From a virus, in the IMG/VR virus record IMGVR_UViG_3300028573_000011, positions 31,442 through 95,441 of that record: a stretch of 64,000 nt of DNA; one strand, 5' to 3'. The notes beneath the pieces are model-generated. The model made no database searches, was not told where the DNA came from, and worked only from the letters and a program-made list of their open reading frames with translations. The translations under genes and the position numbers were made by a program. Position 1 is the first letter of the stretch, and each line of letters starts with the position of its first letter. This document shows, in pieces, positions 9,860 through 62,585 of the stretch.

Positions 9860-10933
9860 CTATGGGCCGTGGAGGCTGGGCATGCGGCTGCGGGCGCAGG
9901 CGGCGGCGCGGGTGATGACCAGCGGGGTGGGTGCGTTGGTGACGCCTCGGCGGGCGAGGTCGGCTTCGACTTCGGCCTGGAGGGCGGCGCCGAAATCGTC
10001 GAGTTGGCCAAGGAGCCGGCGGGCGGCGTTGTACTCCTCGTCGGTGATCACGATGTCGTCGAGGTTTTCCACAGACGTGATCGTTTCGACAAGTGAGGTG
10101 GTCGCCTTGGGTGAGTTGGTTGGTGGTAGTTGGTCAAGGTTGGTCACCGGCAACGGGTTGCCGGAACTGTGGCAACCCGTTGCCGGAAGGCTGGCAACGG
10201 GTTGCCGGAAGGGGTCGTCGCCCGGGGCGCCACTGGCGGCAACGGGTTGCCGGGAGCCTGGACCGTCGGCGGGGTTTTCCACAGGGCCTTGCGGCACCGC
10301 GTTGCCGGAAGCGGCCGTGTTGTCCACAGGGCGTTCCGGCACCGTGTTGCCGGTAGCGTGGATCCCGGGGTTCTGTTCCGGCATCCCGTTGCCGGGAGCG
10401 GGCTCGTCGTTGCCGCGCTGTTCCGGCACCGCATTGCCGGTAGGGGTCTTGGGCTCGCGGTCGATCGGCATCGCCCGGGCTGGCAGCGGCTTGCCCTGGA
10501 GCTCGGCCAGGAAGGGCCGGAGCGCGAGCGGTTTCGGCCGGATGAGCTTGCCGTCGTCGTCGCGCTCGCAGGGCTGTCCGTCGCGGCCGATGGGCTTGCC
10601 CTGGGGGTCGCGGCGCATCGGGATCGCGGGGTAGCCGGGGCCGGGCAGCGTCAGCTGGTAGGTGTCCGGGACGCCGAGCTTCCTGCCGTACTTGGTGATC
10701 TCGATCAGCCCGAGTTCGGTCAGGACACGGATGTTGTCGCGGAGGTAGCGGACGTCGGAGATGATCGCCTCGTCGGCGAGCGTCTCCTCGCTGACCTTGA
10801 CGTTGGAGCCGTCGGGGTCCGCGTAGGTGGCGAGGATCCCGGCGACGGCCTTGACGATCTGGGGCAGGTCGGAGCGTCGGATCCAGACGGCCCACATGTA
10901 GTTGCCGACCGGCTGGTGCTTCAGGTCAGCCAT
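9860..10933 (-). CDS. Winged-helix replication initiator-like protein, 357 aa
   Basis: Residues about 10-95 form a winged helix (MWAVWIRRSDLPQIVKAVAG, TLADEAIISDVRYLRDNIRV, LTELGLIEITKYGRK) of the type seen in phage O-like initiators. Residues about 150-290 are low complexity with recurring GNAVPE-like peptides; these are the translation of DNA iterons. A helical C-terminus (EYNAARRLLGQLDDFGAALQ) follows and could recruit helicase. No helicase or primase gene is seen in the window, so host enzymes are probably loaded. The call rests on the winged helix plus the embedded origin. Confidence 0.6.
   Translation of the reverse strand: MADLKHQPVGNYMWAVWIRRSDLPQIVKAVAGILATYADPDGSNVKVSEETLADEAIISDVRYLRDNIRVLTELGLIEITKYGRKLGVPDTYQLTLPGPGYPAIPMRRDPQGKPIGRDGQPCERDDDGKLIRPKPLALRPFLAELQGKPLPARAMPIDREPKTPTGNAVPEQRGNDEPAPGNGMPEQNPGIHATGNTVPERPVDNTAASGNAVPQGPVENPADGPGSRQPVAASGAPGDDPFRQPVASLPATGCHSSGNPLPVTNLDQLPPTNSPKATTSLVETITSVENLDDIVITDEEYNAARRLLGQLDDFGAALQAEVEADLARRGVTNAPTPLVITRAAACARSRMPSLHGP
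10065..10438. other. Candidate replication origin (iterons plus DnaA boxes)
   Basis: Inside the initiator gene lie three DnaA-box-like sites in the same orientation: TTTTCCACA at 10065-10073, TTTTCCACA at 10275-10283 and TTGTCCACA at 10320-10328. The last equals the preferred Streptomyces box. They are interspersed with eight copies of an inverted-repeat iteron. This layout (origin within the initiator gene) matches lambdoid phages. An AT-rich unwinding element is not obvious; 10078-10145 is the least GC-rich nearby stretch. Confidence 0.6.
10149..10438. repeat. Eight iterons, consensus GGCAMCSSGTTGCC
   Basis: Copies at 10149-10162, 10171-10184, 10193-10206, 10238-10251, 10293-10306, 10338-10351, 10380-10393 and 10425-10438. 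The first four are near-perfect inverted repeats (GGCAAC, two bases, GTTGCC); the rest have one or two arm changes. Start-to-start spacings are 22, 22, 45, 55, 45, 42 and 45 bases, close to whole helical turns, which would place bound proteins on one face of the DNA. Confidence 0.75.
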
Positions 10934-38138: not shown

Positions 38139-39332
38139 TCAGTAGGCTGTTGAGACGAAGTTGGTGACGGTCGCTGCGAAGGCGCCGCCGTCGGTGGCGT
38201 TGTAGATGCCGTCGATGTCGAAGGACGCCGTGACGTAGATGTCGTCCCAGGAGACCTGGCCCTTGTTCCAGCCCGACTTGGTCGACGTCATGGTGATCAC
38301 CGAGCCGCCGAGGACGACTGGCTGGGTGAGGACGGCCGTGCACGGCTGCTGGAGGTACTGCAGGTACAGGTTGAGGTCGGCGTCCGACTCGAAGAGCGCC
38401 TTGTACGAGCCGCTGAAGTCGAAGACGCCCTGGAAGGTCTCCCGGGGCTGCTGGACGCCGTCGGAGCTGTGGATCGCCTCGACCGGCCGCTTGAGGGTCA
38501 TGTCGTAAGACAGGCCGCGGGTGCTTGAGGCTCCCCCGTTGGTCATCGTCCACTGCCAGCCCAGGGCGGGCTGCACGGGCGAGAAGCTCGGCCCGACCTG
38601 GTCGGCGACCTCGGCAGACAGCCAGCCGGTGAACTTCGCCGAGGCGGTCACCATGGCCTTGGGGTCGATCTTGATGCCGAGCTCGCTGCACTTGCAGCCG
38701 GGGAAGCCGCGCGAGTGCGACGGTAGGCCGTTGGCGACCACGTCGTACTTCGTGAAGCTCCAGCTGGTCTGCGCGGCCGCGGGGTTCTGCTTGAAGCTGT
38801 GCGTCGACTGGGAGATCACCGAGCCGCCGGCTGCGGTATGTGCGTAGCGGGTGCCGGTCGAGGGCGTGGTGACGTTCGCGGTGTAGGGCCCGGAGCCGGA
38901 GACGGTCCCGATCTGGACGTACTCCAGGTTCGCGCCGCCGGTGTCGGAGATCTGGATGATCGCGTTGTTGCCGGGGTTGGCTGTGAAAGACAGCGGCGAT
39001 CCGCCGAGGCCTCCGCCGACGACGCAGTCCGCGGTGAGGGTGGTGGTCACGCCGGCTGTGGTGACGGTGTCCGGCCCGATGATGGCGCGGAACAGGTACG
39101 GGAGCGCGTCCGCGTACGCCGCCATCTCGAAGTCGAACGAGCTCTGACCGGGCCCCTGGTAGAGGCCCTGGAGCCCGGTGTCGTTGTTCCGGAAGCTCTC
39201 GTCGCGCAGCGGGTCGTAGACGTCGACCGCATCGCACTTGGTCACGGCGAAGTCGAACCCCGGGGCCAGGTAGCTGCCCTGCGCGCTCTCCTTCCGGCCG
39301 CCGATGTATCCGAGCCGAGAAACAGAGCTCAT
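38139..39332 (-). CDS. Major tail tube protein, 397 aa
   Basis: Beta-rich protein with the tube-protein start MSSVSRLGYIGGRKESAQG and late segments FQGVFDFSGSYKALFESDAD and LYLQYLQQPCTAVLTQPVVL. It is longer than simple tube proteins; the internal part (residues 90-190: VVGGGLGGSPLSFTANPGNN, YVQIGTVSGSGPYTANVTTP) looks like an inserted surface domain. Position before chaperone G supports the call. Confidence 0.8.
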   Translation of the reverse strand: MSSVSRLGYIGGRKESAQGSYLAPGFDFAVTKCDAVDVYDPLRDESFRNNDTGLQGLYQGPGQSSFDFEMAAYADALPYLFRAIIGPDTVTTAGVTTTLTADCVVGGGLGGSPLSFTANPGNNAIIQISDTGGANLEYVQIGTVSGSGPYTANVTTPSTGTRYAHTAAGGSVISQSTHSFKQNPAAAQTSWSFTKYDVVANGLPSHSRGFPGCKCSELGIKIDPKAMVTASAKFTGWLSAEVADQVGPSFSPVQPALGWQWTMTNGGASSTRGLSYDMTLKRPVEAIHSSDGVQQPRETFQGVFDFSGSYKALFESDADLNLYLQYLQQPCTAVLTQPVVLGGSVITMTSTKSGWNKGQVSWDDIYVTASFDIDGIYNATDGGAFAATVTNFVSTAY

Positions 39333-39616
39333 GCCGACTCACCTCCGGGTTCGATGGCCGGCTGAGCGGCGGGCTTCTTGGTCTTGGTGGCGGGGGCCTG
39401 GTCGGCGCTCGCCGCGGGGGCGGCCGGCGGTTCGGGCGCGTCGGCCGGTTCGGGTTCCGGCTCGGGGTCGGGCTCGAGCGATGTGAAGCCGGCCAGGAGC
39501 TTGGGCTGGTCGGTCTCTTCGCCGGGGCCGACGGTGAACGGCCGCCCGTCGGGGTTGTCTTTGGTGGGCCACAGCGAGACGTGCTGCGGGTAGCCCGAGG
39601 TGTTGCGCTGGCGCAC
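39329..39616 (-). CDS. Small Pro/Glu-rich structural-region protein, 95 aa
   Basis: GTG start; stop overlaps the tube start as ATGA. The N-terminal 45 residues (YPQHVSLWPTKDNPDGRPFT, VGPGEETDQPKLLAGFTSL) form a small domain, followed by a low-complexity Pro/Glu/Ala tail. A similar layout appears in the 135-residue protein encoded near the capsid gene. It may be a minor virion protein. Confidence 0.55.
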   Translation of the reverse strand: MRQRNTSGYPQHVSLWPTKDNPDGRPFTVGPGEETDQPKLLAGFTSLEPDPEPEPEPADAPEPPAAPAASADQAPATKTKKPAAQPAIEPGGESA

Positions 39617-39692: not shown

Positions 39693-40172
39693 TCAGCCGG
39701 TGAACTCGAGGTCGTCGGCCTCGTAGGTGATCCGCGCCTCGAACGCGCAGGTCGTCATGGACTGCGGGGCGGACAGGAACTGCACGTCGATGGCGGTCGG
39801 GTTCTCGGCGACGGACAGGAACGTGCCGTGGGTCTTGTCGCCGATCGGGCCGCCGATGCGGGCGATGACGTCGTCGATGGCCTGATCGAAGGCCGCCTGG
39901 TCGCTCTCGGCGTTGCCGGAAGCAGCAGAGAGGGTCCAGCCGCAGATCAGCTCGAAGCCGTAGTGCGGCATCCGGCGCACGTTCGCGGACCGCGTGACCC
40001 GCACGGCGCGCCGCAGGACCCAGATCTGGTTCTGCCGGGTCGCCGGGGTTCGGGGCGCGTAGGCCTGGACGATGTCCCACCGGCCGCCATTGATCTTCAG
40101 CAGTGCTGGGAGCCCGTCGCCTGAGGTGGTGAGCCACGCGGTTTCGCGGGCGACAGCGTCGGCGGTGGACAC
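39693..40172 (-). CDS. Tail terminator/neck-like protein, 159 aa
   Basis: GTG 40172 (VSTADAVARETAWLTTS). Segments HYGFELICGWTLSAASG, AFDQAIDDVIARIGGPI and FEARITYEADDLEFTG resemble tail terminator/completion proteins placed between connector and tube genes. No catalytic features. Position is the main support. Confidence 0.6.
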   Translation of the reverse strand: MSTADAVARETAWLTTSGDGLPALLKINGGRWDIVQAYAPRTPATRQNQIWVLRRAVRVTRSANVRRMPHYGFELICGWTLSAASGNAESDQAAFDQAIDDVIARIGGPIGDKTHGTFLSVAENPTAIDVQFLSAPQSMTTCAFEARITYEADDLEFTG

Positions 40173-40179
40173 GGGTCGG

Positions 40180-40740
40180 TCACCTCCGCCGTCGTCTGCG
40201 TGAGCTGTGGCGGGTCGATCTGCGGTGGTGGCCGGCGGAGTGCCGGGCGGCGCGGTGGGAGTGCGCGCGGGCGGCCGACATCTTCGCCCTGCGGGCGGCC
40301 TTCTCGGCCGGGGTCATGGCGGCCAGGTGCGCGCGGAGCGAAGCCGTACGCTTCGCGCTTCGGGCGGCCTTCTCAGCCGGGGTGAGCTTGGCGTTCGCCG
40401 CCTTGAGGGCCTTGGAGAGCTTGGCCGTGCGCGCCGCGCGCTGCTCGGCGGTGAGCTTCGCGTTCGCGGCCCTCATCGCCGCCGACTGCTTGGCCGCGCG
40501 CGCGGCCTTCTGGGCCGGGGTGAGTTTCGCCAGGGCGGCCTTGCGTTTGGCGGCCATCGCCGCCTTGCGCGCGGCGCGCTGCGCCGGCGTCATCGCGGCC
40601 AGCTTCTTCTTCATCGCCGCGACGCGCTTGGCGGTCTCGGCCTTCTTCTGCGCCGCAGTGAGGTGGTTCCAGCGCGCCTTCATCCTGGCGGCGAGTGCGG
40701 CCCGGGCCTTGGGCGAGAGGTGGTGCTTTGCCTTGGCCAT
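40180..40740 (-). CDS. Histone/protamine-like basic repeat protein, 186 aa
   Basis: Extremely Lys/Arg/Ala-rich. Six repeats of exactly 23 residues begin at residues 27, 50, 73, 96, 119 and 142, each starting with (L/M)-T-(P/A)-A/E-(Q/E)-(K/R)-A-A-R, for example LTPAQKAARAAKQSAAMRA. The N-terminus is HHLSPKARAALAARMKARW; the C-terminus is a His/Arg tail (RHSAGHHRRSTRHSSRR). This resembles Hc1/H1-type C-terminal domains. It lies inside the head-tail operon, so a virion or packaging DNA-binding role is inferred. Confidence 0.7.
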   Translation of the reverse strand: MAKAKHHLSPKARAALAARMKARWNHLTAAQKKAETAKRVAAMKKKLAAMTPAQRAARKAAMAAKRKAALAKLTPAQKAARAAKQSAAMRAANAKLTAEQRAARTAKLSKALKAANAKLTPAEKAARSAKRTASLRAHLAAMTPAEKAARRAKMSAARAHSHRAARHSAGHHRRSTRHSSRRRRRR

Positions 40741-40743
40741 TGG

Positions 40744-41400
40744 CTACTCGCGCATGTAGGGCACGAGCATGCTCTGTGCCTTGATCCGCAGCACGTCAGG
40801 GTCGTGGCCGTGGTCGCCGAGCGGATCGAGCTCGTCGATCACGTAGGCGGCGCCCAGATACTTGCAGGCGCGGACCAGGTCGGCCGGGACCGTGCTGTAG
40901 CCGCCGGAGTAGGTGACGTGCACCCGGGAGCCGACGGGCAGGAACAGGCCGAGCTGGAACCAGACGTGCCCGGAGTCCGGGTCCGGGCCGTCGAGCAGGG
41001 TCGTCACGGTCTGGGTGCCGCCGTAGGAGCGGACGATGCTGATCGAGATGTTCGAGTACGTCCAGTACTCGGGGTGCCGCGGGGCGAACTCGTTCAGCCA
41101 GATCTGCCGCACCTGATCGCTGGAGTTGAGCGAGGCGGCGTAGGACTGGCCGATCGCGCCCTTGATGTCCAGCGGGAGATTCGCCGAGTCGCTGAGCTCG
41201 TCGGGATCGATGCCCTCAGCGCGGTGCGACTCGGTGATGGTGAACGGGGCCAAACGCCGAGAGCACATGCCCTCCAGCTCCCGGGTGGCCTCGATCAGCG
41301 CCTGGTCGATCGCGTCCGTGGAGTAGTTGCGGACGAGGTCGGCGAAGGCGCCGTTCTCGAGCTGGGCGCGGGTGGCGAGGGGAATCGGAGAGTCTGACAC
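40744..41400 (-). CDS. Head-tail connector protein, 218 aa
   Basis: GTG 41400 (VSDSPIPLATRAQLENG). Helical N-terminal half (TDAIDQALIEATRELEGMCS) and C-terminal half (TVPADLVRACKYLGAAYVID) around a beta insert match gp6/gp15-like connector adaptors that dock under the portal. It follows the capsid cluster as expected. Confidence 0.7.
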   Translation of the reverse strand: MSDSPIPLATRAQLENGAFADLVRNYSTDAIDQALIEATRELEGMCSRRLAPFTITESHRAEGIDPDELSDSANLPLDIKGAIGQSYAASLNSSDQVRQIWLNEFAPRHPEYWTYSNISISIVRSYGGTQTVTTLLDGPDPDSGHVWFQLGLFLPVGSRVHVTYSGGYSTVPADLVRACKYLGAAYVIDELDPLGDHGHDPDVLRIKAQSMLVPYMRE

Positions 41401-41428: not shown

Positions 41429-41836
41429 CTACTTGCCCTTGCCTCGTGGCTTGGGGGCTTCGACGACCGGGTCGGCCGGCGCGATCTCGGACAGCTCGGG
41501 TTCGGTGGGCGGTTCGTCCGGCTCGGGCTTCGATTCAGCCGCCGGCTCGGGCTCGGGTTCGGCGGCAAGCTCGGGCTCGGGCTCGGGTTCGGCCGTCGGC
41601 TCTACGGCGGCCTCGTCGGTCGCCGCAGGCAGCGGCTCATCGGTCGCACCTTCGTCCTCTGGGTCGTCGTCCGGCTCGTAGATGACTGTGAAGCCCTCCG
41701 CGGAGCCGAGTTCGGCCAGAACGTAGTCGGGGACCTGGATCGCGGCGCCGTCGGTGGGCCACGAGTAGAGCCAGGGGCCGTTGGGTCCGTAGCCGGCGGC
41801 GCTGCCCGCGCGGGTCTTGGCCAGAAGTGCGGCCAT
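41429..41836 (-). CDS. Small capsid-region protein with acidic Pro/Glu tail, 135 aa
   Basis: ATG 41836 with GGAG eight bases upstream. Residues 1-55 form a small domain (AGSAAGYGPNGPWLYSWPTD, IQVPDYVLAELGSAEGFTVI); the rest is a long Glu/Pro/Ala tail with repeated E-P-E-P. It follows the capsid gene across a hairpin. It may be a minor head protein. Confidence 0.6.
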   Translation of the reverse strand: MAALLAKTRAGSAAGYGPNGPWLYSWPTDGAAIQVPDYVLAELGSAEGFTVIYEPDDDPEDEGATDEPLPAATDEAAVEPTAEPEPEPELAAEPEPEPAAESKPEPDEPPTEPELSEIAPADPVVEAPKPRGKGK

Positions 41837-41901: not shown

Positions 41902-43266
41902 TCAGACCGCGACGGCAACGCGGGACAGGCGTCCGGTGTACTTCGGGGCGCGGACGGCCAGGGTGGTGTCCGACACCAGCGCGTAGGGCAGCGAGTCCGG
42001 CGACGCGGTCGTCGGGTAGACGTCGATCGGCTGGAGCTCGCGGACCCAGGGGCGGACCACGAAGTTCCGGTCCCGGGAGATCAGGTAGATGTTCTCCAGG
42101 CCGCGGCCCACCGGGTACATGCCGGTGTTCGTCCCGTAGTACTGCGTCGGCAGCGTGCCCGGGGCGGTGGCGCCGTTCATCGGCACCAGCGCAGTGCCGG
42201 TGTCGACGATTGAGGTGGTCAGGATCGGGGTGACGCCGTCGGCGCCCAGGCCCACGGTGGCGTCGACGTAGCCGAGGAAGGTCTCGGCGCCGGCGGCGGT
42301 GGAGCGGTAGACCTTGAGCAGGGTCGGCTGGGCCCCGTCCAGGCCGCTCGGCGTGGAGAAGCTCAGGGTGACGGTCGAGGTGGAGCCGGTGGTGGTCTGG
42401 CTGACCTCGGCCGAGGCGATGACCTCGCCCTGGCGGGCGATGACCGCGCCGAGCCGGTACCAGTAGGTGTTCGCCGCCAGGGTGCCGCCGGTGCCGGCGG
42501 TGGCCGTGGTGACGGAGCCGACGTTGTAGTTGCGGGCGGACAGCATCGAGCTCTTGATCAGGGGGATGTCGCGGTAGGTCGGGACGATCAGACCCGCGGC
42601 GACCTCGACGCGGTCGGCGAAACGCTGCTGGTTCTGTAGCAGCTGCGCGATCTTGCTGATCGCGGTGTTCGACATGACCATCATCCAGGTGTCGTCGAAC
42701 ACGTTCATGGCCGCGTTGGTCTCGACCATGTCGATCAGCTCGTCCAGCATCGCCAGCGTCAGCGTGTTGCCGGTCTGGTCGATCGCGTTCTGCGCGCCGC
42801 CGGAGTAGGTCGAGACCTGGGTGTCCAGGCCGTCGAACTGCGGCGCCGCACCGGTGACGGTGGAGGCGGAGTTGCCCCACAGGATGCCGGCCTCGGTGTC
42901 CCAGGTCAGGCCCCGGATGGCGCCCTCGATTTCGGTGGTGCGCAGGTTCTGGATGACCTGCTTGGTGACCTGCTGGGCGTAGCCGGTGACGGCGCCGACC
43001 ACCTGGAGGTGCTTGATCTGGAAGCTGTTCTGCACGTAGGTGCTGGTGCTGACCGGGCGCGCGCCGCCGTCGGGGACGAATCCGCCGCTGGCGACCTGGT
43101 TTCGGTTGTTCCAGTAGTACGTGTCGGAGTCCCACTTCTGGCTCGGCAGCGAGCGCACCAGCGGGGAGTAGCGCCGCTGGTACTCCAGCAGCATCGGGTC
43201 GATGATCTTCGGGACGAGTGCGGATGCACCGGCCGCGGTCAGAGCCTCGCGGAGCTCGGAGGTCAT
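41902..43266 (-). CDS. Major capsid protein (HK97-like), 454 aa
   Basis: Start MTSELREALTAAGASALVPK. Features of the fold: PMLLEYQRRYSPLVRSLPSQ (N-arm), ALGWDTEAGILWGNS-like P-domain region around residue 125, IDMVETNAAMNVFDDTWMMV and a central A-domain. A fibronectin-like insert (residues about 260-350, STVTLSFSTPSGLDGAQPTL, LKVYRSTAAGAETFLGYVD) enlarges the protein relative to simple HK97 capsids and may be surface exposed. It is downstream of protease-scaffold, with own hairpins on each side. Confidence 0.8.
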   Translation of the reverse strand: MTSELREALTAAGASALVPKIIDPMLLEYQRRYSPLVRSLPSQKWDSDTYYWNNRNQVASGGFVPDGGARPVSTSTYVQNSFQIKHLQVVGAVTGYAQQVTKQVIQNLRTTEIEGAIRGLTWDTEAGILWGNSASTVTGAAPQFDGLDTQVSTYSGGAQNAIDQTGNTLTLAMLDELIDMVETNAAMNVFDDTWMMVMSNTAISKIAQLLQNQQRFADRVEVAAGLIVPTYRDIPLIKSSMLSARNYNVGSVTTATAGTGGTLAANTYWYRLGAVIARQGEVIASAEVSQTTTGSTSTVTLSFSTPSGLDGAQPTLLKVYRSTAAGAETFLGYVDATVGLGADGVTPILTTSIVDTGTALVPMNGATAPGTLPTQYYGTNTGMYPVGRGLENIYLISRDRNFVVRPWVRELQPIDVYPTTASPDSLPYALVSDTTLAVRAPKYTGRLSRVAVAV

Positions 43267-47308: not shown

Positions 47309-47443
47309 TCAGCCGATGATCTTCGGGATGAGGGCTTGGACATCCTGGGCCCGCAGCGGGTGTCCCGGGCCGTTTTCGGGTTCCTCGGCGACGTCGGGAT
47401 TCCCGTCGTCGTCGTCGCCGTCGGTGTCGGCCGGGTCGGTCAC
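47309..47443 (-). CDS. Tiny acidic protein between portal and MuF, 44 aa
   Basis: GTG 47443 overlaps the portal stop as GTGA. The sequence VTDPADTDGDDDDGNPDVAE is strongly acidic; the end (LRAQDVQALIPKIIG) is helical. Short acidic peptides here could bind the portal crown. Coupling to the portal is the main support. Confidence 0.55.
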   Translation of the reverse strand: MTDPADTDGDDDDGNPDVAEEPENGPGHPLRAQDVQALIPKIIG

Positions 47444-48960
47444 GCGGCTTCCTCAGGGTCGTCGTCGGGCAGGCTGATCAGGGCCTCGCGCAGGCGGCGG
47501 CGGTACCGCTTCGCCCAGCTTTCTTTGGTCTCTGGGTTTTCATCAGAGCCCGGATCGTCCTCCCCGTCGCGTGGTGGCCCGGCTTCGGCGTCGGCGCCGG
47601 ACTTCGGGGCTGGCGTGGGGGCCGGGGTCTTGCTGGCGACCGTGGCCGTGCTCATGGCCTTCATGTCGGACCACAGGACGACGTTCTGGCGGTCGACGAG
47701 GATGGGTTCGTTGCCGCCGTCGACCGGCGGTTCGCCGATCTCGGTCCGGTACCGGTTGAGGGTCCAGGAGCCGTTGCGCAGGCGGGTGTCGCGGATGTCC
47801 TCGATCGTCTTGGAGTCACGGAGGTCGACCTCGCCGAATTTGAGGCACCAGTCGGTGATGCCGAAGCCGACGCGCACGATGTGGTAGTTGATCTTCTCCA
47901 GGACCAGCTGAGCGATCGGGTCGCAGGTGTTGACGTGGAAGGTCTTCATCTGGGACTCGCCGGTACCCGAGCCGAGGTGCCCGGACTCGATCACGCTGGC
48001 CATCGCCGGCGGGACGCCGAGCGCGGCGAGGATCTCGTCACGCTTCTGGTCCAGCCAGGTCTCGACGTCCGTGATGCGGCCGGGCTGGAGCTCGGTGACC
48101 CGGCCGCCGTTCTTCGTCGGGATCGGCGCGCCGATGTTCCGCGCGCCGATGTTCCGCTGCGAGTACCGGGCCATCCAGCGGTTGATCTCCGCGGTCGGCA
48201 TGCCGGCCGGGAAGTCGACGTGGACGGTCGGCGGCAGTCCCTTGCGGAACATCTCCTTGCCGGTCGCGGCGGCGAACAGCCAGGCGGTGATGGGCACTTG
48301 GGCGGCGAGCAGCGGTGACACTCCGAAGACGCCGCTCCGCGGGGCGTCCATCGAAATGTGGATCACCTCGCGCGGCTTGAACGTCGCGCGCTGCCCGAAG
48401 TCGGTGATCTGGACGTAGCCGGTGATCGTGCCGTGCTCGTCGGCCTTGGGGTACATCGTCGGGGCGTCGAGGGAGTACAGCGAGACCGGGAGGTTGCCGA
48501 CCCAGACGACCTCGATGTAGGCGTCGCCGAAAACCATCAGGTCGGTGATGACGCCGCGCATCAGCTGCCGGATGTCCTCGCGTTCGTTGGTGAACGCCAG
48601 GAGCCGCTCCAGCGCGAGGACCTGGGCCGGCTTGTCGGGGATCTCCTGGTCGCCCTCGCCGGTATCGCCGTTCCAGTCGGTGACCAGGCCGCCGGCGGTG
48701 ATGGTGCGGGCAACCGCGTTGACGCCGGAAAAGGCCCAGGGGCAGGAGATGTAGCTGTCGTACAGTTCCGTCAGGACCGACTTGCGGTCGGACTGGGTGG
48801 AGGCGCCGACCGCCTGGTTGTACTCGGAGATGCCGCCGGGCGGGATGCCGTACTCGAAGCCGGACCGCTCGGGGGTCTTCGGCGCCAGGCCGGCGGCCGG
48901 CGCGGCCTCGGTGACGTCGTAGCGGGACCGCCACGGGCGCATCCAGGAGGGCAGTGCCAC
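47440..48960 (-). CDS. Portal protein, 506 aa
   Basis: GTG 48960 follows GAGGAGG. Features: WAFSGVNAVARTITAGGLVT (early helical and wing), IEVVWVGNLPVSLYSLDAPT, KPREVIHISMDAPRSGVFGV and HLGSGTGESQMKTFHVNTCD, typical of HK97/SPP1-type portals. It forms the dodecameric DNA entry ring. Preceded by terminase, followed by MuF. Confidence 0.85.
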   Translation of the reverse strand: MALPSWMRPWRSRYDVTEAAPAAGLAPKTPERSGFEYGIPPGGISEYNQAVGASTQSDRKSVLTELYDSYISCPWAFSGVNAVARTITAGGLVTDWNGDTGEGDQEIPDKPAQVLALERLLAFTNEREDIRQLMRGVITDLMVFGDAYIEVVWVGNLPVSLYSLDAPTMYPKADEHGTITGYVQITDFGQRATFKPREVIHISMDAPRSGVFGVSPLLAAQVPITAWLFAAATGKEMFRKGLPPTVHVDFPAGMPTAEINRWMARYSQRNIGARNIGAPIPTKNGGRVTELQPGRITDVETWLDQKRDEILAALGVPPAMASVIESGHLGSGTGESQMKTFHVNTCDPIAQLVLEKINYHIVRVGFGITDWCLKFGEVDLRDSKTIEDIRDTRLRNGSWTLNRYRTEIGEPPVDGGNEPILVDRQNVVLWSDMKAMSTATVASKTPAPTPAPKSGADAEAGPPRDGEDDPGSDENPETKESWAKRYRRRLREALISLPDDDPEEAA

Positions 48961-48981: not shown

Positions 48982-50580
48982 TCAGGACCAGGGCGAGTCG
49001 GTGGTAACGGCGCCGGGCCGGGCGGTGGGGGTGTCGTCGTCGAACCAGTTGCCGTGGTCGGGCGGCGTGGGGACGGCGAAATGGCCGAGGAGGGTGTATG
49101 AGGTGTGGCCGAGTGGTTCTTCCGGCGGGGCGTCGAGGATCGGGAACTCCGGGCCTCCGCCGATGCCCATCAGGAGGTAGCGGGCGGCGTCGTACCAGTG
49201 GTCGGGGGCGTCGGTGTTGACGTCCTCGGGCCGTTTCGGGTCGCGTGGGAGGTCGGCCATGGTGGTCAGGAGCTTGGGGCAGGCTCCGTCGACGACGTGC
49301 AGCATCGGGCATGTCGCCCAGCCCATGGCGCGGTGGTGTGCGCAGGCCGGCGCTTCCTGCAGGTAGGTGTGCAGGCGGGCCTTGCCGCCGAGGCGGTCGT
49401 TGTCGCCGCGGCTCAGCGCGAGGCCTTCGGTGGCCATCTTGTCGGCGGGCGGCAGCGAGGATCCGGTCTTGCCCCACATCGCGGGGTCCGCGGACACCAG
49501 CGCGATCCTCAGGCCGCGGTTGGCTTCCAGGATCTGCCGGGCCTGCTCGACCTCGGGGGTCTGGACCATGGTGATCTCGCGGTAGAACCACATGCGGCCG
49601 TCGGCGTCGCGTGCGGCGGCGAGGTAGACGGCCGGGGCGGCCCAGCCGTAGTCCATGCCGCCGTAGCGGATCCACTCGTCGGGGACGGTGAAGGGCGGGA
49701 CCGTGATGCGGTCGCGCTTCCAGTCGGGGAAGGCGGCGTCGGGCATGGCCGACCAGTCTCCGTCCCTGATCCGGGCCCGCAGGTCGGGGTCTGCGATGCC
49801 GGCGAGGGTCTTGGAGTAGTCGCCGACGTGGGGGTTGTCGGTCGCCTTGGCCGGGATGAAGATCCGGCGGCGTCCGGCCTCGTCGATGATCTCCTTGTTG
49901 CCGTAGTCGGTGGCGTCGACGTAGTTGGCCTTCACGACGCCGTGGCCGACGTGTCCGGGGTTGGATGCGGACCGTGCTCCCAGGCACGGCACCGTGGCGA
50001 CGCCGGACCGAATGCGGGTGTAGAGGAAGTCAACGACGTCCGGCGGCATGGTGGTTCGCTCGTCCAAGATCAGCATGTTGATCTCGGCGGAGGACAGCGA
50101 CGACGCTTCCTGCAGGTTCTTGGCGTGGCCGAAGGTGAGGACGCTGTTCCCGAGCGCGCTGCGGAACCGGAGCTCGTACTTCGAGCCGTCCCAGCGGCCA
50201 CCGATCCGGCGGGCGTAGCCGTACCGGGCCAGGGTGCGCAGGACGGACTGGTTGAGCTCGGGGAAGGAGCGCCGGAACCAGAAGATTTGGATGCCCGGGT
50301 ACCGGATGCAGGTCCGCAGTGCGAGCGCCAGCAGGGACCAGCTCTTTCCGCCGCCGCCGGCGCCGCCGTACAGGACGTCAAGGTCCTCATCCGGCAGCCC
50401 GAGGAACTTCTCCTGCGGGCAGGTGCCGCAGTGGGCGGGCAGCTCGTGGGCGGGGACACCGGCGAGCTTGGCGAGCTCGCGCGGCTTGCAGACCGGTTCG
50501 AAGCCGAGCTCGGCGAAGACGTCGATCTCGACGTCTTCGACCTCGAGCCGGTCGGCGGCCTGGGCGAGGGCGGCGTCCAC
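48982..50580 (-). CDS. terL: Terminase large subunit, 532 aa
   Basis: GTG 50580. ATPase: Walker A LYGGAGGGGKSWSLLALAL at about residue 75, Walker B-type INMLILDERTTMP, and coupling motif SNPGHVGHGVV. Nuclease: IRYGGMDYGWAAPAVYLAA with the first Asp, LVSADPAMWG, and C-terminal ALVSADP-like strand. The N-terminus carries a CGTCPQEKFLG loop. It packages DNA into proheads. Downstream of the small terminase. Confidence 0.92.
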   Translation of the reverse strand: MDAALAQAADRLEVEDVEIDVFAELGFEPVCKPRELAKLAGVPAHELPAHCGTCPQEKFLGLPDEDLDVLYGGAGGGGKSWSLLALALRTCIRYPGIQIFWFRRSFPELNQSVLRTLARYGYARRIGGRWDGSKYELRFRSALGNSVLTFGHAKNLQEASSLSSAEINMLILDERTTMPPDVVDFLYTRIRSGVATVPCLGARSASNPGHVGHGVVKANYVDATDYGNKEIIDEAGRRRIFIPAKATDNPHVGDYSKTLAGIADPDLRARIRDGDWSAMPDAAFPDWKRDRITVPPFTVPDEWIRYGGMDYGWAAPAVYLAAARDADGRMWFYREITMVQTPEVEQARQILEANRGLRIALVSADPAMWGKTGSSLPPADKMATEGLALSRGDNDRLGGKARLHTYLQEAPACAHHRAMGWATCPMLHVVDGACPKLLTTMADLPRDPKRPEDVNTDAPDHWYDAARYLLMGIGGGPEFPILDAPPEEPLGHTSYTLLGHFAVPTPPDHGNWFDDDTPTARPGAVTTDSPWS

Positions 50581-59716: not shown

Positions 59717-60616
59717 TCAGAAGTCGCCGTAGTCGACTTGCAGGCACCTCAGGCCGAGGCGGCGCCACAGTCGGACCACGCGGTCGCGGTCGTCCAGGAC
59801 GAGGTGCACCGCGTAGTTCTCGCGCACGTGGGCGTCGAAGAGCTCGCCCTTGACGATGTCGTCTGGCCGGACGTCGCCGGCCCGGCGCATCCAAAGCGCG
59901 TGGTAGGGGACGCTGTGCTTGTCGAGCCAGCGCTTGGTGTGCTCGGCCACGCTGTCCGGGCGTCCCGACATCAGCACGATCCGGTCGCCAGCTGCGTGGC
60001 ACAGACGGACGAGGCGGGCCACGTCCTCGTGGAGCAGGTCGGTTTCGCACAGGTCGTAGGCGTGGGGGCCGCGGCCGCTGTTGTCCGCGAGGGTGCCGTC
60101 GAGGTCGCAGATGATGGCCGGTGGGAGGGTGTAGTCGGGCTGATACGGGGCGAAGATCGGCCTGTCGTTCAGCTGGTCGGCGGTCAGGCAGCGGCTGCGC
60201 TTGGCGCGCTGGGCCATCCCGCGGATCACTTCCTCGCCGACGGAGGCCCTGCGCACGGCGTCGCGCCTGATGCACTCCTCGATCGGGACGTGGGTGAAGC
60301 TGTGCACGACGAAGGTGGCATCCCGGCCGGCCAGGAGGTTCTTGTATCTGCGGGGAAGCCGGGAGGTCATGTGCGTGTTGTCGATCACGACGTCGAAGCC
60401 GTCGTCGACGGCAGCGAGGATCGCGGCGTCCTGGACGCGCAGGACGGTCTCCTCGTGGTCGGTCCGGAAGGATCCGTCGTGGCGGTCCATCATCCGCCGC
60501 AGATCGTCCAGGTTGACCCGACGGACCCGGCCGGCGGACTCCTCGACGAGCCGCAGCGCGAAGGTGCTTTTCCCGGATGCGGGCAGGCCGGTGGTGAGGT
60601 GGATCATGGACGTCAT
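59717..60616 (-). CDS. Polynucleotide kinase / 3'-phosphatase, T4 Pnkp type, 299 aa
   Basis: Kinase first: P-loop TGLPASGKST (residues 9-18), RVNLDDLRRMM with the acceptor-binding Asp near 37, and lid Arg region at about 118-125. Phosphatase second: HAD motif CDLDGTLADN (Asp171, Asp173), DRIVLMSGRPDSVAEHTKRW, and LVLDDRDRVVRLWRRLG. Length equals T4 Pnkp (301 aa). It adds a 5' phosphate and removes 3'/2',3'-cyclic phosphate on broken RNA, preparing ends for Rnl1. ATGA-coupled to RlaP. Confidence 0.9.
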   Translation of the reverse strand: MTSMIHLTTGLPASGKSTFALRLVEESAGRVRRVNLDDLRRMMDRHDGSFRTDHEETVLRVQDAAILAAVDDGFDVVIDNTHMTSRLPRRYKNLLAGRDATFVVHSFTHVPIEECIRRDAVRRASVGEEVIRGMAQRAKRSRCLTADQLNDRPIFAPYQPDYTLPPAIICDLDGTLADNSGRGPHAYDLCETDLLHEDVARLVRLCHAAGDRIVLMSGRPDSVAEHTKRWLDKHSVPYHALWMRRAGDVRPDDIVKGELFDAHVRENYAVHLVLDDRDRVVRLWRRLGLRCLQVDYGDF

Positions 60617-61296
60617 GAGGTGGGCTCCTGGTAGTAGTGGGCGCGGACCGCCAGGAGCCACCGCTCGACGGTCTCGGTGTCGGGTTTGTCCGGCAGCGGC
60701 GAGCCCGCCGCGCCCATGCGGTTCTCGGCCTCCTCGATGAGGAGCCGGCCGGTGAGCGGGTCGGCAACGATCGTCCGGCCGATGGCCCGGATCTGTTCGG
60801 GGTCGGCGACCTGGATGGCGAGGTGGCCGGTGGTGTACAGCTGCTCGCCCTGCTGGACGAGTCGGACCAGGTGCCGGGCGTGCTTTTCTGCCCGGCGCAC
60901 TGGGATGTCGGCGGAGAAGGAGCCGTCGCCGCGGCGGATGAGTTTCGTGAGCTGCTGGTGGGCGTAGCCGAGGTAGGCACTGCGGACGGCGGGCGCGGAT
61001 AGGAAGGCGCGGCGGATGGCGATGAGCCTTTCCCCGAGCGGCGTCGTGTTCTCATAGTGCTTCAGCCACATCAGCTCGCCGACGGTCGGGTTGCCGCCGA
61101 GGGCCAGGCGGCAGAATTTCCCGGCCTCGTGGAGCGTCTGGTCGGGGGCGGTGGTGACGTCGGACTCTCTCGGCCGGGTCAGCCCGTGGAACGCGATGGT
61201 GGGGGCGGCAAAAACTCCGAGCCGGTCGACGTCGGAGTCCGGGCCGTCCAGTCCGTACGCGGTGGACCCAACCACGCCAGCGAGGAGGACGTCCAT
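60613..61296 (-). CDS. RlaP-type nucleotidyltransferase, 227 aa
   Basis: Polymerase-beta-like nucleotidyltransferase start: LLAGVVGSTAYGLDGPDSDV (Gly10-Ser11, Asp22, Asp24), then DRLGVFAAPTIAFHGLTRP. Helical remainder with GKFCRLALGGNPTVGELMWL. Fits the PF10127/RlaP family, described in surveys as an RNA-repair associate. Exact reaction is unproven; end-nucleotide addition is a plausible role. It overlaps Rnl1 and Pnkp by ATGA, so the three are co-translated. Confidence 0.85.
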   Translation of the reverse strand: MDVLLAGVVGSTAYGLDGPDSDVDRLGVFAAPTIAFHGLTRPRESDVTTAPDQTLHEAGKFCRLALGGNPTVGELMWLKHYENTTPLGERLIAIRRAFLSAPAVRSAYLGYAHQQLTKLIRRGDGSFSADIPVRRAEKHARHLVRLVQQGEQLYTTGHLAIQVADPEQIRAIGRTIVADPLTGRLLIEEAENRMGAAGSPLPDKPDTETVERWLLAVRAHYYQEPTS

Positions 61297-62585
61297 CAGC
61301 GGTCCTGGTCGTCGCGGAACGGGTTGGTAGCCGACGGTCGGACCGCGCGCCAGACGTGCGGCCCGGTGTCGCGGTCGTCATAGCGCAGGAAGAGCCCGGA
61401 TCGGATCACCGGGTCGGCGACGAGCTGCTGCGCAGCGACGGCGAACGCTGCCCGGCGGCCCTTGGGGGTGGGGTCCTTGGGCTTGGCGGCGCTCATGACG
61501 GCGACCAGGGTGTTGCTGATGGTCGCGGACATGCGCCAGTACTGGTCGTCGAGCTCGTCGACGACGGACCGGACCCACTGGTCGAACTCGTCCGGCACGT
61601 CGACCAGCAGCGCTGCGAGCGCGCCGGCGTCGACGGTGGCCAGTCGCGCGGCTTCGGCCTTGGACACGCCGATCGTCTGGGCGAGGCGCACGGCGTCGAG
61701 TTCGGCGAAGCGCTGGGCGCCGTAGGCCCGCCAGACATCGACGGCGTTGGTGCCGGTCAGACGCTTGTGGAGCCGGACGTACTCGCCGACCTTGACCTTG
61801 ACGCGCAGGCCGCCGACGTATCGAATTACCCAGCCCTCTGCGTTGGTGCCGGTTGCTGTCGATCCGTCGAGCAGCCGGTCTTCCTGCGCGGCGCGTACCA
61901 GCTCGGGCAGCATGGCCGGCGGCCAGGACCTGATCACGCGGCCGCCGAGGGCCTGCCACATCTCGGCGTAGTCCTCAAGGCGCTGCTCGGTTCCGTCCGG
62001 GGCGTAGACGGCCAGGAGCACGAGGGTGCGTTCGCCGCGGTAGTCGACGACGATGCGGTTCTCCGGGTACACGATCTCGGTGACGTAGGTATGGCCCGGG
62101 ATGAGGAGGCCGCTGGGCTCGGTGTCGTCGAGCCACTGCTGTGCCCACGTGGCCTGGTCGGAATAGAAGGAGCCCTTCGTGGCGACGCGCCACTTGCCCT
62201 CGTACCAGAAGACGGTACCCAGGGAGCCGTCGGCCTTGTCGTAGACCCGGTGGGGCGTCTCGTTCGGCAACGGGGGCGCGAAGGGATGCCCTTGGCCGTG
62301 CTGGTCGTGGTTGAAGAACTTCGGCATGCACCAGCCGACGATGCGGCCGCTCGGCTGCTCAACGACCAAGCCGCGGCAGCGGGTGGTGACGCGGTTCCAG
62401 CGCTGTTCGTACTGGCAGGCGCGGCTGTAGGTGTAGATCGTCAGTGGCAGCGAGTCGTGGTGACTGACGCGCACGTAGCCAGCGGTGATCTCCGCGTTCA
62501 GCTCCTCGAGGTGGAACAGCTCGTTCATTATGACGTCGCGGTCGGTGCCGAGGGCGAGCTCGGGATCGATGTCGAGGGTCTTCAT
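61296..62585 (-). CDS. T4 Rnl1-like RNA ligase, 429 aa
   Basis: Ligase motifs in order: RCRGLVVEQPSGRIV (about 69-83), nucleotidyl motif RVYDKADGSLG with Lys117, HTYVTEIVYPENRIVVDYRG at about 165-184 (motif III/IIIa type), AEGWVIRYVGGLRVKVKVGE (motifs IV, V, with Lys263 and Lys265). The first 60 and last 110 residues resemble the T4 Rnl1-specific extensions; the C-terminal helical domain would bind tRNA. It seals 5'-phosphate and 3'-OH ends of RNA. Confidence 0.92.
   Translation of the reverse strand: MKTLDIDPELALGTDRDVIMNELFHLEELNAEITAGYVRVSHHDSLPLTIYTYSRACQYEQRWNRVTTRCRGLVVEQPSGRIVGWCMPKFFNHDQHGQGHPFAPPLPNETPHRVYDKADGSLGTVFWYEGKWRVATKGSFYSDQATWAQQWLDDTEPSGLLIPGHTYVTEIVYPENRIVVDYRGERTLVLLAVYAPDGTEQRLEDYAEMWQALGGRVIRSWPPAMLPELVRAAQEDRLLDGSTATGTNAEGWVIRYVGGLRVKVKVGEYVRLHKRLTGTNAVDVWRAYGAQRFAELDAVRLAQTIGVSKAEAARLATVDAGALAALLVDVPDEFDQWVRSVVDELDDQYWRMSATISNTLVAVMSAAKPKDPTPKGRRAAFAVAAQQLVADPVIRSGLFLRYDDRDTGPHVWRAVRPSATNPFRDDQDR

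Follow-up and report, generated by a model that had tools for sequence, protein, structure and literature searches.

Position and coding status of the repeat gene

What would a small, very basic, repetitive protein do when its gene lies among the head and tail genes of a phage? This question is raised by an open reading frame at positions 40180-40740 on the minus strand of the window, by which we mean the whole 64,000-nucleotide stretch analysed here, taken from a 95,441-base virus record. The encoded protein contains 62 alanines, 53 lysines plus arginines, 4 aspartates plus glutamates and 10 histidines, and has a pI of 12, which bears out the first-pass annotation of a Lys/Ala-rich protein with a His/Arg tail. 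The codon-position GC of the gene is 0.66/0.63/0.93, matching that of the neighbouring genes, and its dN/dS against its nearest relative (locus L099) is 0.27. These two results show that 40180-40740 is truly coding and that purifying selection acts on it. Given that the record encodes a protease, capsid, connector, tail tube, tape measure, portal and terminase as well as an integrase, the virus is most likely a temperate siphovirus. The genes that define the setting are the following.

40180..40740, minus strand: gene for a basic repeat protein, predicted to bind DNA, 186 aa (open reading frame, codon-position GC, dN/dS)
40744..41400, minus strand: head-tail connector/adaptor gene, directly upstream of the repeat gene (phrog_442, E 6.7e-7)
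39693..40172, minus strand: next structural gene, called "neck" from its position; present in 79 of 82 relatives' loci
41902..43266, minus strand: major capsid protein, used as anchor for finding relatives (phrog_752, E 7.9e-41)
47440..48960, minus strand: portal protein (phrog_12)
48982..50580, minus strand: terminase large subunit (phrog_2)

The connector stop codon and the start of the repeat gene are 3 nt apart, and 7 nt separate the stop codon of the repeat gene from the start of the gene that follows. The product of this following gene (39693..40172) has no PHROG or Pfam match. The same gene set also encodes Pro/Glu-rich acidic proteins, at 41429-41833 and 39329-39616 on the minus strand.

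Repeat units and predicted structure

The lag-23 self-identity of the protein is 0.51, compared to 0.19 ± 0.03 in shuffled sequences (z = 10.3), and none of 20,000 shuffles reached the observed value. Six 23-residue units start at residues 27, 50, 73, 96, 119 and 142, at a constant spacing of 23 residues, as had been proposed. The units had also been called exact repeats, and this label is wrong since they are 35-65% identical to each other (mean pairwise identity 50%); no stretch longer than 8 residues recurs exactly. Residues 8-26 form an extra, shorter unit ahead of the six. All features below lie on the minus strand.

40663..40719, minus strand: putative NUMOD3-type unit, shorter (19 residues), residues 8-26, LSPKARAALAARMKARWNH (NUMOD3-type unit profile)
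40594..40662, minus strand: 23-residue unit 1, LTAAQKKAETAKRVAAMKKKLAA (repeat analysis)
40525..40593, minus strand: 23-residue unit 2, MTPAQRAARKAAMAAKRKAALAK (repeat analysis)
40456..40524, minus strand: 23-residue unit 3, LTPAQKAARAAKQSAAMRAANAK (repeat analysis)
40387..40455, minus strand: 23-residue unit 4, LTAEQRAARTAKLSKALKAANAK (repeat analysis)
40318..40386, minus strand: 23-residue unit 5, LTPAEKAARSAKRTASLRAHLAA (repeat analysis)
40249..40317, minus strand: 23-residue unit 6, MTPAEKAARRAKMSAARAHSHRA (repeat analysis)
40183..40236, minus strand: disordered His/Arg/Ser C-terminal tail, residues 169-186 (AlphaFold2 pLDDT about 50-58)

An AlphaFold2 model of the protein, computed from an eight-row alignment, is made up of seven helices (residues 10-26, 29-49, 52-71, 75-94, 98-117, 121-141 and 144-168), separated by breaks at every Thr-Pro/Ala, and of a tail predicted to be disordered. 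The pLDDT is mostly above 90, and the pTM, at 0.39, is low, so that no fixed arrangement of the helices is predicted. The protein is thus helical in the model without DNA, and it forms a row of helices rather than a histone fold. A Foldseek search of the PDB with this model returned no match.

Nor does any histone or protamine family in Pfam, PHROGs or NCBIfam match the protein. The label histone/protamine-like therefore fits the charge of the protein, as an analogy, and nothing more: the proposed DNA binding is well supported by the NUMOD3 and STPR units considered below, whereas membership of either family is not. Protamines, baculovirus p6.9 and adenovirus core proteins are small and very basic, and p6.9 and the adenovirus cores are encoded by viruses. 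The window protein resembles them in its small size, its strong basicity, its Arg-rich tail and its origin in a dsDNA virus, but it has no sequence match to them, and in place of unstructured Arg tracts it has regular repeats that are predicted to be helical. It is also Lys/Ala-rich like the H1-like tails of bacterial HU/HupB, but it lacks an HU domain and keeps a regular 23-residue register. A search of the literature on protamine-like or histone-like phage virion proteins found nothing on this phage group.

The slot after the connector gene in related viruses

Relatives were found by means of the capsid protein, the connector and the proteins encoded in the slot right after the connector gene. 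They comprise IMG/VR contigs, sequences in Streptomyces, Streptantibioticus, Peterkaempfera, Catenulispora and Streptosporangiaceae genomes, and the circular Amycolatopsis japonica plasmid pAmyja1; the group consists of uncultivated viruses of soil actinobacteria. The plasmid (L136, NZ_CP008954.1, 92,539 bases) looks like a phage-plasmid, since genes of the group for terminase, portal, capsid and tail are all present on it, and the capsid protein matches it at 62%. Among cultured phages, the capsid protein search found only Leptospira phages LE3/LE4, at 29%. Searches of cultured phages gave no match to the window protein, to the connector or to the slot proteins of L004, L007, L031 and L092; the low-complexity filter of BLAST may mask basic proteins, but the connector, which is not of low complexity, was unmatched as well.

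We then surveyed the slot in 82 non-redundant loci with different connector ends. Forty-nine slot open reading frames were flagged, and those of L030 and L035 were dropped as non-coding (low GC3 and the codon-position GC of a wrong frame). The remaining 47 loci carry a basic, nearly acid-free open reading frame right after the connector gene. The first-pass annotation had considered a histone-like gene unusual between connector and neck genes; within this phage group, a basic gene at 47 of 82 loci is the usual state. The slot proteins have an average net charge per residue of 0.30 (0.21-0.44) with 1% Asp+Glu, compared to family means of -0.07 to +0.07 for ten neighbouring structural genes. Their start codons lie mostly -3 to +6 nt from the connector stop. 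Across 13 pairs, the dN/dS of the slot gene is 0.09-0.35 and that of the connector gene in the same pairs is 0.05 to 0.31; selection constrains the slot protein, though in many cases a little less strictly than it does the connector.

Many relatives, mostly from a Streptomyces prophage branch, have no slot gene, and in many of those without it the next gene begins no more than about 15 nt from the connector stop; the slot gene is thus not essential for assembly in general. At L064 and L096 a NUMOD3 array is displaced one gene beyond the slot. On a connector tree, many branches of which are weakly supported, the slot types require at least 17 changes and the presence or absence of a basic gene 7, so exchange, gain or loss of the slot gene has happened more than once. 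The aligned connector sequences were too diverse to be scanned. Median record size is 97.7 kb with a slot gene and 80.9 kb without one (p = 0.03), a lead only, since the records over 60 kb that were compared are hand-picked and of uncertain completeness.

The slot is also occupied by proteins of other kinds. A second type with F[RK]AHKGR-like motifs (L027, L031, L032, L034, L047, L053, L068, L073 and L111) matches no known family, and at L015 F.AH-like motifs are joined to NUMOD3 units. The KH-rich slot proteins of L009 and L113 are equally basic and match neither NUMOD3 nor STPR. Those of L067, L059, L066 and L026 have a basic or Ala/Lys/Thr-rich N-terminal stretch followed by a folded-looking C-terminal domain with Cys and His; an assignment of the L067 domain as a cysteine peptidase was abandoned, as neither Pfam nor the PDB supports it. 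At L061 the slot, 203-1723 nt past the connector stop, encodes a 506-aa protein with a signal-peptide-like start. Positions 5220-5831 of L039 encode a NUMOD4-HNH homing endonuclease between the connector and the next gene, in the same place as the NUMOD3 arrays.

NUMOD3 arrays without a nuclease

Judged by their sequences, most basic slot proteins are arrays of NUMOD3 (PF07460) without a nuclease. Six of ten scanned slot proteins pass the Pfam cut-off of 20.4 bits, with scores of 24-52 bits. The pAmyja1 protein in the same slot, WP_040133640.1, scores 20.5 bits against this cut-off and is already annotated by NCBI as a "NUMOD3 domain-containing DNA-binding protein". A search of 33 whole records found no NUMOD3 outside the array gene, which lies at the slot or one gene beyond it, and a NUMOD3-type profile has no match in 296 genomes of the phylum, in a search run without a positive control. 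The only PDB match of the NUMOD3-family profile is I-TevI (1i3j), and it is weak (E 0.058). A model of a NUMOD3-type slot protein has shorter helices with linkers and lower confidence than that of the window type.

NUMOD domains typically occur in homing endonucleases (PMC1564403), and the NUMOD3 unit is common to the DNA-binding part of I-TevI-type homing endonucleases and the sister slot proteins. The slot arrays differ from these enzymes in consisting of 2-9 consecutive units and a basic tail, encoded in a head-tail gene set and lacking a nuclease domain; in Pfam scans, neither the window protein nor the slot proteins of the NUMOD3 type show a GIY-YIG or HNH domain. The window protein itself has no match to Pfam NUMOD3. 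The NUMOD3-type unit profile matches its residues 6-23 (i-E 6.7e-5, 12.3 bits; full-sequence E 8), so that in comparison with NUMOD3 proteins it appears to retain one degraded unit.

STPR-type units and their possible link to NUMOD3

The 23-residue subtype comprises the window protein and the slot proteins of L099, L004, L087, L089, L090, L118 and L120. Three of these pass the cut-off of 27 for STPR (PF21107), with scores of 42.7 (L089), 44.7 (L118) and 39.4 (L120). The window protein alone reaches 17.7 of 27 bits (E 0.0048) and matches FMBP-1 of Bombyx mori with an E of 0.07; its link to STPR is thus made through its relatives. The best PDB match of the subtype profile is the STPR of FMBP-1 (5d23, 5d2q and 5d2s; E 3.8e-9), with four repeats aligned in register in 23-residue units.

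FMBP-1 is a transcription factor that binds an AT-rich motif, and Arg9 is needed for its rigid DNA-bound STPR (PMC4821344). The phage units share with FMBP-1 the 23-residue period, the TPxQRxxR start and Arg9, which is kept in 55 of 65 units, and the model of the window protein has one helix per unit. An STPR domain takes up its helical form on DNA; the model is helical in its absence. They differ in number (6-11 in the phage proteins, 4 in FMBP-1) and in having mostly Ala where FMBP-1 has Glu4, the salt-bridge partner of Arg9 (Glu4 is kept in 13 units and Glu5 in 4). The setting differs too, being a prokaryotic virus with a GC-rich genome rather than an animal, whereas the motif of FMBP-1 is AT-rich. 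The STPR family search found none in 198 actinobacterial genomes, while the same search matches ten phage records; as far as this check extends, there is no earlier sign of STPR-type units in viruses of prokaryotes. The window-subtype profile matches one of 294 host-order genomes, at the slot of a Catenulispora prophage.

It is quite possible, though short of an even chance, that this likeness is a convergence of Lys/Ala-rich helices, the protein being a polycation derived from NUMOD3 arrays that does not bind in a groove. Such an explanation would still allow the protein to act on packaged DNA; what it contests is the kinship and the binding mode, not the function. It is favored by the score of the window protein alone, under the STPR cut-off, and by the F[RK]AHKGR-type proteins and the KH-rich proteins of L009 and L113, which are equally basic and match neither module. 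However, eight shuffles of the L118 protein (five period-keeping and three full) gave no STPR match. The window core is 34.8% identical to the FMBP-1 STPR over 89 residues without gaps, a value reached in 7 of 2000 period-keeping permutations of the core. The register, Arg9 and the surrounding residues agree with FMBP-1 beyond period and composition.

The two unit types meet within single chains. The NUMOD3-type unit profile matches the N-terminal units of L004 and L087 (36 bits) and L099 (23 and 20 bits), also those of L089 and L090, and weakly that of the window protein (12 bits); in each of these proteins NUMOD3-type units are followed by 23-residue units. On the connector tree, L090, of the 23-residue type, is sister to L122, of the NUMOD3 type. 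The mixed chains and this sister relationship suggest that the NUMOD3-type and 23-residue units are related within these phages, a bridge that need not extend to the ancestry of the animal STPR.

Proposed function and alternatives

Kinship to two DNA-binding modules, together with the charge, makes it very probable that the window protein binds DNA, and we expect this binding to be largely without sequence preference. The protein would be a stand-alone DNA-binding array without a nuclease that forms part of the head-tail gene set in a group of temperate siphoviruses of actinobacteria; to this explanation, taken as a whole with the particle role below, we give even odds. The repeat protein is probably made late, with the connector. 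Our main reading is that its target is the packaged genome inside the particle, which it would either coat or clamp close to the junction of head and tail, and we assign this a probability of roughly 45%. The putative particle role is suggested only by the place of the gene, its tight spacing to the connector gene and its replacement by equally basic proteins. Of the roles put forward in the first-pass annotation (neutralising packaged DNA, entering the cell with it or binding host DNA), none is singled out by the data, although place and spacing speak for one in particle assembly.

Each 23-residue unit is predicted to be a single helix, about 20 residues long, and a break of 2-3 residues falls at the Thr-Pro/Ala start of the next unit. 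The STPR helices of FMBP-1 lie along a groove of DNA. By analogy, the row of helices would most likely run along a groove of dsDNA with one unit per few base pairs, and the His/Arg tail would contribute loose charge. A fuller proposal, in which a packaged-DNA binder acting as a protamine analogue built of NUMOD3/STPR helices is combined with a common ancestral unit of NUMOD3 and STPR, the two still joined in one chain, is doubtful as a whole. In the usual view, the DNA packed by tailed phages is naked, with small cations neutralising its charge. A basic DNA-binding array kept beside the connector gene throughout a phage group would be a direct and testable exception to this.

The protein might instead be made late and remain outside the particle, binding host or replicating phage DNA for nucleoid compaction, protection or gene control. 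Its modules bind DNA and include no known capsid-binding domain, it is missing from some relatives as an accessory protein might be, and FMBP-1 is itself a transcription factor (PMC4821344). We regard this explanation as unlikely, given that the gene is locked between two structural genes with its start at the connector stop and that, where the array gene is displaced (L064 and L096), it lies just a single gene away. As a rule, accessory genes are found elsewhere than within the head-tail gene set.

Far less probable is a functionless remnant of a homing endonuclease that inserted beside the connector and lost its nuclease. The usual association of NUMOD domains with such enzymes (PMC1564403) and the endonuclease in the same slot of L039 fit this history, which may explain the origin of the gene but not its upkeep: the frames are intact in 47 loci and under purifying selection, arrays of 6-11 units keep position-specific units between phages, and other basic proteins replace the array in the slot. 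It is similarly improbable that the protein is an assembly factor that pairs not with DNA but with the acidic proteins of 41429-41833 and 39329-39616, two genes of the same set that have acidic Pro/Glu-rich tails, since these genes are present with or without a slot gene and the repeats match DNA-binding modules.

Other features of the window

Three further regions of the window were recorded. A cytochrome P450 gene (23613-24830, plus strand; PF00067, 71.6 bits) lies between the integrase and the tail genes. At 59717-62585 on the minus strand, adjoining genes for a PNKP-like kinase/phosphatase, a nucleotidyltransferase and a T4-type RNA ligase form a nucleic-acid repair set. Finally, positions 10149-10358 contain tandem 22-nt and 45-nt repeats with a GGTTGCCGGAAGG-like core, located within or beside a gene matching a replication initiation protein; these repeats could be iterons.
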